Shown here: piece by piece, positions 44,089-47,195 of the stretch
Position numbering within the stretch: position 1 is the first letter of the stretch
How the letters are laid out: every line of letters begins with the position of its first letter
Assembly (NCBI RefSeq): GCF_001245615.1
Contig: NZ_CWKH01000001.1
Span: 2,728,001 to 2,792,000 of the forward strand
DNA: 64,000 nucleotides
Direction of reading: 5' to 3'
Source: Mycolicibacterium neworleansense
GTDB lineage: Bacteria; Actinomycetota; Actinomycetes; Mycobacteriales; Mycobacteriaceae
Notes under the pieces: generated by a model
Seen by the model: only the letters and a program-made list of their open reading frames with translations
The model's database searches: none
Told to the model about the DNA's origin: nothing
Position numbers and translations under genes: made by a program

Positions 44089-44106
44089 GACCGATCGGTC
44101 TAATCT
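44089..44106. promoter_or_regulatory. TetR operator over the promoter of the glycosyltransferase operon
   Basis: GACCGATCGGTC (44089-44100) is a perfect 12-bp palindrome. TAATCT (44101-44106) directly follows it and ends 6 bp before the ATG at 44113, so the operator overlaps the core promoter of a leaderless transcript. Confidence 0.65.
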
Positions 44107-44112
44107 CAGACC

Positions 44113-44742
44113 ATGCGGTCAGATCGGACGAAGACGTTTACCGAGCAGGCCCGCCGCCGGCAGATTGTCGAGGGCGCGCTGGAGGTGATCGCCGAACAGG
44201 GCTATCCGCAGGCTTCCCTGGCGCGCATCGCCGAACACATCGGTATCGCGAAAAGCGCTGTGCTGTACCACTTCACCAGCAAGTCCGAAGTGGTCGAGGC
44301 GGTCTTCACCGAGATCTTCGCCCGTGGCGCCGCGGTGATCGTGCCAGCGGTCAACGCCGAAACCTCCGCGGCGGCAAAGCTGTCCGCCTACATCCGGGCC
44401 AACGTCACGTTCGTCGCGGCCAACCGATCGGCGGCCGTGGCGATGCTCGAACTCATCTCGGGTTACCGCGACGCAGACGGATTGCGGGTCGACCAGTCCG
44501 CGGCCAAAGCCGTCCAGGAGCATCCCCCGACCGGGGACCTGGCCGCGCTCGACCCGCAGAGCATCTTCTCCGCTGGCGTGGGCAACGGTGAGTTCCGGGA
44601 GCTGTCACCGACGTTCATGAAGAACATCCTGCGTGGCGCGCTCGACAGCGCCGCGCAAGAATACGCACGCGACCCCGACTACGACGTCATCGGCCACGGC
44701 GAAGCGCTCATCGAGATCTTCGAGAAGGCCACCGCACCGTGA
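44113..44742 (+). CDS. TetR-family repressor of the UGT-AtpE-UGT operon
   Basis: 209 residues. The HTH region is QIVEGALEVIAEQGYPQASLARIAEHIGIAKSAVLYHF at about 17-54 (key: GYPQASLARIA and GIAKSAVLYHFTSKSE). The ligand-binding domain fills the remainder. Its stop overlaps the GTG of the first glycosyltransferase, so it heads the operon and probably represses it together with itself through the palindrome at 44089-44100. Ligand unknown; given the downstream genes, a glycosylatable drug-like compound is a reasonable guess. Confidence 0.88.
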   Translation: MRSDRTKTFTEQARRRQIVEGALEVIAEQGYPQASLARIAEHIGIAKSAVLYHFTSKSEVVEAVFTEIFARGAAVIVPAVNAETSAAAKLSAYIRANVTFVAANRSAAVAMLELISGYRDADGLRVDQSAAKAVQEHPPTGDLAALDPQSIFSAGVGNGEFRELSPTFMKNILRGALDSAAQEYARDPDYDVIGHGEALIEIFEKATAP

Positions 44743-46010
44743 CGACCATCGCCATCGCGGCGTTCGGCAGCCGGGGAGATGTCACCCCATACACGGGTCT
44801 GGCTCGGCGGCTGACCGATGTGGGCTATGACGTAATTATCGCGGCCCAGCAACCGTACCGGGAATTGATATCCGCCAATGGATTTGAGTTCCGATCATTA
44901 CCCGGGGATACCGAACAAGCCACTAAGTCCTCATTGGCCGCACAGGCATTCGTCGACGGTGGCCGGATGCGGCCGTCTGGCCGATTGCTCGACCAGATGC
45001 GCTCCGATATGCGGGAGCTGGGCGCAGCTCTGGTCGAAGCGGCCGCAGATGCTGATCTGCTCCTGCTGCCGGCCGTCGCCGCCACAGTGGGCTACCACGT
45101 TGCGGAAGGACTCGGAATTCCCAGCGCAGGCGTGTTTCTACAGCCCACCGCGCCGACCGGCGATTTCCCGCCCTCGGTGCTCAGCGCAAAATCCTTCGGG
45201 CGCTGGGGCAACCGAGCCGTGGGCCGAATCGGGGCGATGGGTGAAAAGGCCTATCTGCCTGTGATCAACGAGCTTCGCACCAACCTCGGCCTGGCCACCA
45301 CGTCTCGTACCGACTACCAACGCCGCCGCGCCGCCACCTGGCCCATCCTGCACGGCTTCAGCGAGCACGTCGTACCGCGCCCACAAGACTGGCCGGCGCA
45401 TCTCCACGTCACCGGATATTGGTGGCCGTCGGAATTCGAGAACTGGTCTCCGCCACGTCAACTGGTGGACTTCCTGGACGCCGGTCCACCACCGGTCTAC
45501 GTCGGCCTTGGTAGCACGGCAACGGCGCGGGGCCCTGAGCTGTCCGACACCATCAGCAAAGCGCTGCGCGCCAGTCGAACCCGGGCGGTGGTGCAGACGG
45601 GCTGGGCCGGGCTGCACTGCCCCGGCGACGACGTTCTGATGGTCGACGAACTTCCACACTCATGGCTGTTTCCTCGCATGGCGGCAGTGGTGCACCACGG
45701 CGGAGCGGGCACCACCGCGTCGACGCTGCGAGCCGGCGTTCCATCGGTGCCCGTCACCGGAATCATGGATCAACCTTTCTGGGCCAAGCGACTACAGCTT
45801 CTCGGTACCGCCCCCGTGGGGCTGCGACGGACCGCATTGACTGTCGACGCCTTGTCGGCCGCAATCACCACAGTGTGCGCCGATCCGGCCTATCGCACCC
45901 GGGCTCAGCAACTCTCGCACCTGCTGGCCCGAGAAGACGGAATGGACGTGGCGTCGCAGCGCATCACCGAAGTGCTCAATCGATCACAGGAGGTACACCA
46001 TGGCAAGTGA
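44739..46010 (+). CDS. UGT-type glycosyltransferase (GT1, macrolide/sterol/glycolipid type)
   Basis: 423 residues, GT-B fold. The N-terminus has the family hallmark IAIAAFGSRGDVTPYTGLAR. The C-terminal donor site is complete: YVGLGSTA, VVQTGWAGL, WLFPRMAAVVHHGGAGTTAS (HHGGAGT at 319-325) and MDQPFWAKRL. It transfers a sugar from an NDP donor to a small hydrophobic acceptor such as a macrolide, sterol or glycopeptidolipid core. GTG start coupled to the TetR stop. Its 3' end carries the AGGAGG (45988-45993) of the AtpE-like gene, with an 11-bp overlap. A second, damaged copy follows AtpE. Confidence 0.88.
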   Translation: MTTIAIAAFGSRGDVTPYTGLARRLTDVGYDVIIAAQQPYRELISANGFEFRSLPGDTEQATKSSLAAQAFVDGGRMRPSGRLLDQMRSDMRELGAALVEAAADADLLLLPAVAATVGYHVAEGLGIPSAGVFLQPTAPTGDFPPSVLSAKSFGRWGNRAVGRIGAMGEKAYLPVINELRTNLGLATTSRTDYQRRRAATWPILHGFSEHVVPRPQDWPAHLHVTGYWWPSEFENWSPPRQLVDFLDAGPPPVYVGLGSTATARGPELSDTISKALRASRTRAVVQTGWAGLHCPGDDVLMVDELPHSWLFPRMAAVVHHGGAGTTASTLRAGVPSVPVTGIMDQPFWAKRLQLLGTAPVGLRRTALTVDALSAAITTVCADPAYRTRAQQLSHLLAREDGMDVASQRITEVLNRSQEVHHGK

Positions 46011-46248
46011 CGCTCTGATGGGTAACGCCCTGCTGGCCGGGGCCATCGTGCTGGCCGGTGGGGCGATCGGTGCCGGGATCGGCGACGGACTCGCCGGCTC
46101 GCAGTTCATCGCCGGTGTAGCGCGTCAGCCGGAAGCTCAAGCACGGCTTTACACACCGTTTTTCATCACCGTCAGCCTTGTCGAAGCGACGTTCTTCATC
46201 AACATCGCGTTCATGGCACTGTTCGTCTTCGCCACCCCGGGCGGCTAG
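46000..46248 (+). CDS. atpE: Stand-alone ATP synthase F0 subunit c paralogue
   Basis: 82 residues, a complete c-subunit hairpin: helix 1 (about 9-35, LAGGAIGAGIGDGLAG), the polar loop ARQPEAQ, and helix 2 (about 52-79) with the proton-carrying Glu62 in SLVEATFFINIAFMALFVFA. It is near-identical in pattern to mycobacterial AtpE, yet no other atp gene is here; it lies between two glycosyltransferases. Against the M. tuberculosis AtpE sequence recalled from memory, positions near the ion site differ: Ser59 for Gly58, Thr64 for Ala63, Phe65 for Tyr64. A strong AGGAGG with six-base spacing precedes the ATG. The next gene's GTG follows the stop directly. Function is open: an alternative c-ring subunit is likely. 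Confidence 0.93.
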   Translation: MASDALMGNALLAGAIVLAGGAIGAGIGDGLAGSQFIAGVARQPEAQARLYTPFFITVSLVEATFFINIAFMALFVFATPGG

Positions 46249-47195
46249 GTGGCGACCATTGCGATCATCGCGATCGGCAGCCGTGGCGATGTAGCTCCGC
46301 TGACCGGGGTCGGTGTGCGGCTACAGCAAGCCGGGCACCGCGTGATCATGGTGGCGTATCAGGCTTTCGCCAACCTGGTAACCGGCTGTGGGCTGGAGTT
46401 TCGCGCACTGGATGACGGGCTCACCGACGCCTCAACCGGTCTTTCCGATCTGTCAGCACGCCAAGCCGCAAAAGCCATGGCGGCGTTCCTCTCTCCACAC
46501 GGCATGCGGGCTTTGGGCGATCAAGTGTCGGCCGTTGTCCGTGACGAACCGGTAGACGCGCTGCTCCTCTCACCATTCGCGGAGCTGGCCGGCCATCCGC
46601 TGGCCGATGCACTCGCCGTACCCGCCATCAGCGTTCGGTTGCAGCCGTTCTCGGCTACCTCGCAATATCCGCCGGCGGTATTGGGCGCTTGGAGCGCCGG
46701 CCCGATCGGGAACCGGGCGGCAGCGCGGATCGGTGTGGCGGTGATCGACGGCGTATACGGCAGGACGGTCAATCACTTTCGCGCACAGCTCGATCTGCCC
46801 AAGGCCTCGGCACGATCGCTGAGACGGCGACGCACCGAAGCGCGCCTGCCGATCCTCTACGGCTACTCCCCCGCGGTGCTTCCCCGGCCGTCCGACTGGC
46901 GAGCCGGCGTCGAGGTCGTCGGCTACTGGTGGCCGGCGCAGCCGTCCGGCTGGCGACCGCCCGCCGAACTTGTGGAGTTCCTCGACGACGGTCCGCCACC
47001 GGTCGTGATCGGTTTCGGCAGCACCGTAACCAGCGATGCCGAAGCCCAACGACTGTCTGCGCTTGTGGCACAGGCTGTTCGGAGCGCCGGCGCCCGGGCG
47101 GTGGTGCAGACCGGCTGGGCGGGACTCGACGCGAGCGGGGACGACGTGATCGCGGTCGGCGACATACCCCACGACTGGCTCTTCGCGCGCGCGGC
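46249..47195 (+). pseudogene. Second UGT-type glycosyltransferase, truncated at a chimeric junction
   Basis: Homologous to the first glycosyltransferase from IAIIAIGSRGDVAPLTGVG through VIGFGSTVT, VVQTGWAGLDASGDDVIAVG and IPHDWLFARAA (about 316 codons). Exactly there the HHGGAGT donor-sugar motif and the last helices should follow, but the sequence changes to a 57-bp copy of MarR-gene DNA and then to the antisense of a nitronate monooxygenase fragment. The frame happens to stay open to 47730, so a fusion protein could be made, but it lacks the NDP-sugar site. It is most likely inactive. GTG start directly after the AtpE stop. Confidence 0.82.

Follow-up and report, generated by a model that had tools for sequence, protein, structure and literature searches.

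The stretch of the Mycolicibacterium neworleansense genome analysed here (64 kb of contig NZ_CWKH01000001.1, positions 2,728,001 to 2,792,000; hereafter, the window) raises the question of why a complete c subunit of ATP synthase should be encoded in an operon headed by a TetR-family repressor gene and next to glycosyltransferase (GT) genes. The original prediction was an inducible, two-part resistance cassette that glycosylates a c-ring inhibitor and supplies an altered target. Comparison of this locus with its relatives leads us to a related reading: the operon is likely to confer immunity, induced by antibiotic, to a natural compound that inhibits the ATP synthase rotor. The features in question are as follows:

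44077–44106, plus strand: putative core promoter, predicted from sequence, with TTGCGG (−35-like), TAATCT (−10-like) and an 18-base spacer
44089–44100, no strand: perfect palindrome GACCGATCGGTC in the promoter spacer, a likely TetR operator, found by comparison of cassettes
44113–44742, plus strand: TetR-family repressor, 209 amino acids (aa) (Pfam PF00440, E 2.3e-13)
44739–46010, plus strand: GT-A, a complete GT1-type glycosyltransferase, 423 aa (PF06722/PF03033/PF00201)
46000–46248, plus strand: AtpE2, a complete c subunit of ATP synthase encoded apart from the atp operon (82 aa; Glu62 retained; PF00137)
46249–47195, plus strand: GT-B, a second glycosyltransferase, truncated, recognized by homology to the complete GT-B of relatives
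47196–47252, no strand: exact 57-base copy of the interior of marR (50728–50784) at a deletion junction, identified by sequence match

The tetR, GT-A and AtpE2 genes and the start of GT-B form a single, tightly coupled unit, with the junctions originally described, namely, GTGA, an 11-base overlap and a zero gap ahead of GT-B. AtpE2 is indeed complete, matching PF00137 and retaining Glu62 and the RQP loop, and has its own strong ribosome site, AGGAGG, six bases 5' of the ATG. By Pfam and NCBIfam matches (NF004532, 127.3 bits against a cut-off of 120), the carboxylate and the RQP loop, it is an F-type subunit c, without the traits of a housekeeping AtpE: it does not lie beside atpB or atpF and groups apart from the AtpEs of atp operons. 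Searching the whole window with eight atp proteins of the host (E 0.001) recovered this AtpE only. The host's own atp operon sits on another contig of the 6.29-Mb genome, so that AtpE2 is not the sole AtpE of the species; the comparison suggested with the prediction shows that the housekeeping AtpE, flanked by atpB and atpF, is a separate gene, its product 71% identical to AtpE2.

Stand-alone AtpEs of this kind are not peculiar to one genome. When 297 genomes of the genus were scanned, 27 intact loci turned up in 24 of them, counting the window; 21 loci belong to class I and six to class II as defined below. From partly overlapping scans of the order (397 genomes) and the family (401 genomes), 15 further loci in three other genera were read and counted, second matches being followed up in part. 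The association of AtpE with GT and TetR genes recurs, in Mycobacterium and in three other genera of the family. Among the 42 intact loci, TetR is found in 33, a full-length GT in 31 and a MerR-TipAS regulator in three (one broken), with none of these in five. The gene orders include TetR-GT-AtpE-GT, TetR-GT-AtpE, TetR-AtpE-GT (L118), TetR-AtpE (L124, L224) and TetR-GT divergent from AtpE (L280). The distribution is patchy (at least 24 of the 297 genomes in the genus scan), and the flanking genes vary by lineage, which argues that the cassette is not a single frozen chromosomal stretch. A GT next to AtpE is rare by chance, given only seven PF06722 matches in the entire host genome, although this comparison uses counts only and the loci are related to one another.

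For the phylogenetic analysis, 282 AtpE places were collected, 36 of which lacked a full open reading frame (ORF) by the length and start rule (34 operon copies and two fragments), leaving 144 distinct proteins, four broken ones among these being removed ahead of alignment. The first tree included 70 of the 103 distinct operon proteins, those being the first 70 with at least 55% identity to the reference. In the AtpE trees, built on few columns and with many forks left without clear branching, the stand-alone copies form class I (20 distinct proteins, Shimodaira-Hasegawa-like approximate likelihood ratio test (SH-aLRT) support 99–100) and class II (14 proteins, SH-aLRT 82–85), both apart from the operon AtpEs and each covering three genera. 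Two pairs of stand-alone copies that group with operon AtpEs (L146/L229 and L147/L230) and the distant copy L218 were kept out of the class counts, and the site counts given below refer to 56 distinct operon proteins of the family. AtpE2 is under strong purifying selection. In comparisons from the window, its ratio of nonsynonymous to synonymous substitution rates (dN/dS) is 0.01–0.10 (10 comparisons), the lowest of the three genes compared, against 0.16–0.25 for GT-A (nine comparisons, the value for the frameshifted gene of L113 being rough) and 0.10–0.51 for TetR (10 comparisons). In L118 and L124, AtpE is retained and GT-A is lost.

The changes in the stand-alone proteins are concentrated on one face of helix 2. 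In the numbering of Mycobacterium simulans AtpE (L011), where the proton-carrying residue is E61, the window protein, judged against the 56 operon AtpEs, has S59, T64, F65 and I69 at reference positions 58, 63, 64 and 68, and its glycine motif, thought to set the size of the c-ring, is intact. Between positions 50 and 79, 27 sites are at least 90% conserved in the operon AtpEs, and only four of these, 54, 58, 64 and 68, are shifted in the stand-alone copies; the same four are shifted in class I and class II, and none of the 56 operon AtpEs departs at any of them. On the helical wheel, each of the four sits no more than 60 degrees from E61 (hypergeometric p 0.019, for a test picked post hoc), and E61 is the sole centre among positions 55–68 that covers them all. 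On a tree built without those columns, sites 54, 58, 64 and 68 changed 5, 6, 6 and 7 times, respectively, in the stand-alone rows and not once in the operon rows. Two sites of known resistance mutations, 63 and 28, vary as well (PMC6541270, PMC11672644). At position 63, 18 of the 20 class I proteins have T, I, S or V and two of the 14 class II proteins have V, compared with A in 49, M in six and V in one of the operon copies, and position 28 is N in eight of 34 stand-alone versus three of 56 operon AtpEs. By comparison, R41, Q42, E61, A62, F65 and N67 are invariant in all 37 aligned stand-alone proteins.

The strongest individual hint of a resistance role comes from loci in which AtpE appears to be under a regulator of another type. 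A MerR protein with a TipAS antibiotic-recognition domain is encoded directly 5' of AtpE in L123 (class I, Mycobacterium) and L266 (class II), the two regulators being 65% identical, and a third, in pieces 71–76% identical, is split by a Mutator-type transposase in L227 (class II, Mycobacterium). TipAS-MerR genes thus precede AtpE in three loci, in both AtpE classes and in two genera, beside AtpE without a GT. Regulators of the TipA class bind antibiotics and turn on resistance genes (PMC7762955).

In the window itself, the regulator would be the TetR. The tetR ATG lies six bases past the −10-like TAATCT, and judging by this spacing the operon mRNA is probably leaderless. A palindrome is found close 5' of the tetR start codon in 30 cassettes (29 loci and the window, compared by eye), with the exact core GACCGATCGGTC in 15 of the 30 and variant palindromes in the remainder; in L222 and L224, a clear copy of the palindrome sits further upstream. 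In the whole genome, the 18-base operator motif has one exact match and one match with three mismatches, the limit of the search, so that this TetR probably controls only this operon, its own gene included; a larger regulon was rejected, as no second exact operator motif was found in the genome. Directly upstream of tetR, a 230-aa protein without a Pfam match is encoded (43375–44067), with a homologue beside the L117 cassette and a fragment in L116.

The prediction of an operon with two GTs holds for GT-A and for relatives of this strain: GT-A is complete, and GT-B, truncated at 47195 here, is whole elsewhere (414–419 aa in L113–L117). In the window, homology to GT-B ends at 47195, after 316 of about 416 aa, and is followed by the 57-base marR copy and then by a truncated, antisense nitronate monooxygenase gene. 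Relative to L114, about 760 bases are gone at this junction, the deletion cutting both GT-B and the nitronate monooxygenase gene, and the marR copy that fills it could reflect either templated repair or an assembly error. GT-B thereby lacks the segment that matches the invariant H320–Q345 block of GT-A, which we take to bind the sugar nucleotide in the GT-B fold, and two working GTs in this strain, as originally envisaged, were rejected. Unless the junction is an assembly error, the operon of this strain consists of TetR, GT-A, AtpE2 and a GT remnant. In L113 (5752–7260), it is GT-A that is frameshifted near its end, the ORF (502 aa) continuing in the AtpE frame, with GT-B at full length.

The structure of GT-A is predicted with high confidence (mean predicted local distance difference test score, pLDDT, 93). 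Its nearest solved folds are those of UGT51, a sterol glucosyltransferase of yeast, and of GtfA, GtfB and GtfD, which are glycopeptide GTs, macrolide GTs ranking lower, and GT-A resembles sterol glucosyltransferases in sequence as well as fold; macrolides, named as substrates in the original prediction, are accordingly not supported. The best NCBIfam match is the rifamycin GT Rgt (NF000354; 124.5 bits, cut-off 800), and the macrolide GT families TIGR01426 (61.5 bits, cut-off 260) and NF033129 (30.4 bits, cut-off 700) score lower still, so that GT-A is a member of none of them. A large hydrophobic natural product would be our guess for the substrate.

Bedaquiline was rejected as the main cognate drug: it is synthetic, and species reported to bear AtpE2, namely, M. 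franklinii (P0018), M. chelonae (P0027) and M. peregrinum (L004), are susceptible, with minimum inhibitory concentrations (MICs) of 0.062, 0.062 and 0.015, respectively (PMC5817190), although the strains may be different ones. Its role as the inhibitor countered, as proposed originally, is therefore unlikely. A natural rotor inhibitor made by actinomycetes, for example, of the venturicidin family, appears more likely. The oligomycin site partly overlaps the bedaquiline site, and venturicidin probably acts on bacterial Fo as well (PMC7438494, PMC8249445).

Taken in order, the cassette would work as follows. TetR would sit in its own promoter and shut the operon off until the inhibitor, or a related signal, releases it. 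The GT would then attach a sugar to the inhibitor, and AtpE2, translated from its own strong ribosome site, would be built into new c-rings, with the drug-facing surface altered and the proton-carrying Glu kept. We infer each of these steps, from repression and drug induction through glycosylation and ring assembly to resistance itself. What the sequences themselves show is the gene order and its recurrence, the palindrome kept ahead of tetR, the two clades, the face-specific changes and the purifying selection. In favour of an inducible cassette that supplies a modified target speak the helix-2 shifts on the Glu face, the TipAS sensors beside both AtpE classes and the purifying selection; the data do not support bedaquiline as the drug, macrolides as the GT substrate or two working GTs in this strain.

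Several observations weigh against this reading. The bedaquiline MICs of species reported with AtpE2 span 0.015–0.062 (PMC5817190), although strains may differ, and GT-A scores too low for membership of the rifamycin or macrolide GT families. Nine of the 42 loci lack a TetR and 11 lack a full-length GT. Operon AtpEs vary too, with Met or Val at reference position 63 in seven of 56 and Asn at position 28 in three of 56. According to PMC11672644, bedaquiline contacts E61, L59, A62, A63, Y64, F65, I66 and L68, and PMC6541270 names A63 and D28 as resistance sites and places site 58 within 2.5 Å of the drug; the shifted sites coincide with the contact list in two of four cases (p 0.27), or in three of four (p 0.065) with site 58 added. 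Because this enrichment is not significant, the claim of an altered surface rests on the Glu face and the parallel shift. A mixed c-ring might also remain drug-sensitive. Finally, a transposon screen of M. abscessus scored its operon atpE as essential (PMC8262987), which implies that any spare copy in that strain does not replace it uninduced.

An alternative that we regard as unlikely, if the best of the remainder, is that AtpE2 is an alternative c subunit that serves under altered energetic conditions (low proton force, pH or stress), with the GT acting on an envelope lipid in the same response. The retention of the Glu, the RQP loop and most of the glycine motif under strong purifying selection would fit, as would the likeness of GT-A to sterol glucosyltransferases in sequence and fold, and a fungus is reported to regulate aerobic metabolism with two c-subunit genes (PMC4956034). 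Yet, the glycine motif is unaltered in the window protein, the changes cluster on the Glu face, TipAS antibiotic-sensor genes precede AtpE, and the distribution is patchy. AtpE2 could instead be a decoy that absorbs the inhibitor in the membrane, outside working rings, as a small protein of the membrane, translated from a strong ribosome site, conceivably might; a decoy, however, should preserve the drug surface, and here that surface appears to be what changed and the functional residues are kept, which makes this idea improbable. Equally improbable is that the GT is the functional gene, dedicated to an envelope glycolipid or a self-made metabolite, with AtpE2 as a passenger duplicate: the genome does hold other GTs of the family (seven PF06722 matches), but AtpE2 has the lowest dN/dS and persists where GT-A is lost (L118, L124) or a GT was not found (L224).

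Least probable of all, in our estimate, is immunity against a protein or peptide toxin of a competitor aimed at the c-ring. Target replacement would suit any agent that binds the rotor face, but the GT and the TipAS sensors indicate small molecules, and an alpha/beta hydrolase gene adjoins AtpE in L224 and L269. These two hydrolases were rejected as a single enzyme type, being 26% identical. Antibiotic-inducible immunity against a natural rotor inhibitor remains our preferred reading.

The scans produced further observations. L178 (G529), one more class I cassette that the order scan found in the genus, does not enter the counts. Neither does L218 (G300), whose genus is represented here by two genomes, the second with only partial matches; L218 (7187–7441) is a distant stand-alone AtpE that belongs to a different family within the order and is directly preceded by a tetR gene of another kind. 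Six genomes (L154–L158, L172) share one short remnant of AtpE, and L225 and L226 are broken copies; stand-alone AtpEs, then, also decay. Some genomes of a sister genus, g2 (L214, L215, L281, L282), have two AtpE matches each, one among atpB/atpF-like genes and one more distant, perhaps reflecting two atp operons. The class II AtpE of L006 and L273 (Tsukamurella sp. 8F type) is divergent from a second tryptophanyl-tRNA synthetase gene; in other bacteria, genes of this type serve as antibiotic-resistant copies of the target. Spread by phage or plasmid was rejected: there was no phage match, and the sole plasmid match belongs to an ordinary atp operon in a record that is labelled as a plasmid; that record, L238 (NZ_LR134452.1, 385 kb), carries the complete operon and is probably a piece of chromosome. 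Databases label stand-alone AtpE proteins plainly, as F0F1 ATP synthase subunit C or similar.

Resistant target copies are a known kind of resistance, as exemplified by mecA PBP2a, mupirocin-insensitive IleRS, the second RpoB in Nocardia and inducible TrpRS. Like these, AtpE2 is an extra copy of an essential target besides the normal gene, with changes that may lie near the drug site, and is apparently regulated; unlike these, the target is a rotor subunit of ATP synthase that works as a ring of nine. Rgt and the macrolide GTs Mgt/OleI, the best NCBIfam matches of GT-A, share its GT1-type fold without including it. Podospora anserina likewise has regulated paralogous genes for different c subunits, but that system is fungal and mitochondrial, concerns energy metabolism by the title of the report (PMC4956034), and showed no drug-modifying partner gene. 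M. xenopi, M. flavescens and others are naturally bedaquiline-resistant through Met63 in AtpE (PMC5817190); the same site is changed here, but to Thr, Ile, Val or Ser and in a separate copy, whereas those species alter the operon atpE. TipA/AlbA-type drug-sensing regulators (PMC7762955 and PMC6078987) parallel the TipAS-MerR genes of the three loci; the window cassette has a TetR instead, and the neighbouring gene is a target copy. Our search, which covered an open-access library, turned up no account of a stand-alone or regulated bacterial atpE, or of a bacterial c subunit that shares a regulated operon with a modifying enzyme.

One practical warning is that atpE sequences in databases may be the spare copy. 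PMC6541270, which describes a bedaquiline predictor, treated AtpE variants of 23 susceptible species as harmless, and its model misclassified G58S, A63T, L68V and N33A. AtpE2 proteins have G58S, A63T and L68V, which are missing from all 56 operon AtpEs, and all four variants occur together in the L096 AtpE2, one residue from database protein P0015, named Mycobacteroides. A spare copy thus appears, from these matches, to have entered that alignment.

More broadly, there is about an even chance that bacteria of the mycobacterial family swap their rotor subunit on demand, with an antibiotic turning on a spare c subunit that forms a drug-insensitive c-ring and a partner enzyme destroying the drug. 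If so, they would have a class of resistance that has not been described before and that draws on at least two types of regulator (TetR and TipAS) and perhaps two of enzyme (GT and hydrolase), and a direct experiment on mixed or exchanged c-rings would become possible. Drugs now used against mycobacteria include some that target ATP synthase; resistance to rotor inhibitors would then have a long environmental history, pointing to natural rotor inhibitors yet to be discovered.

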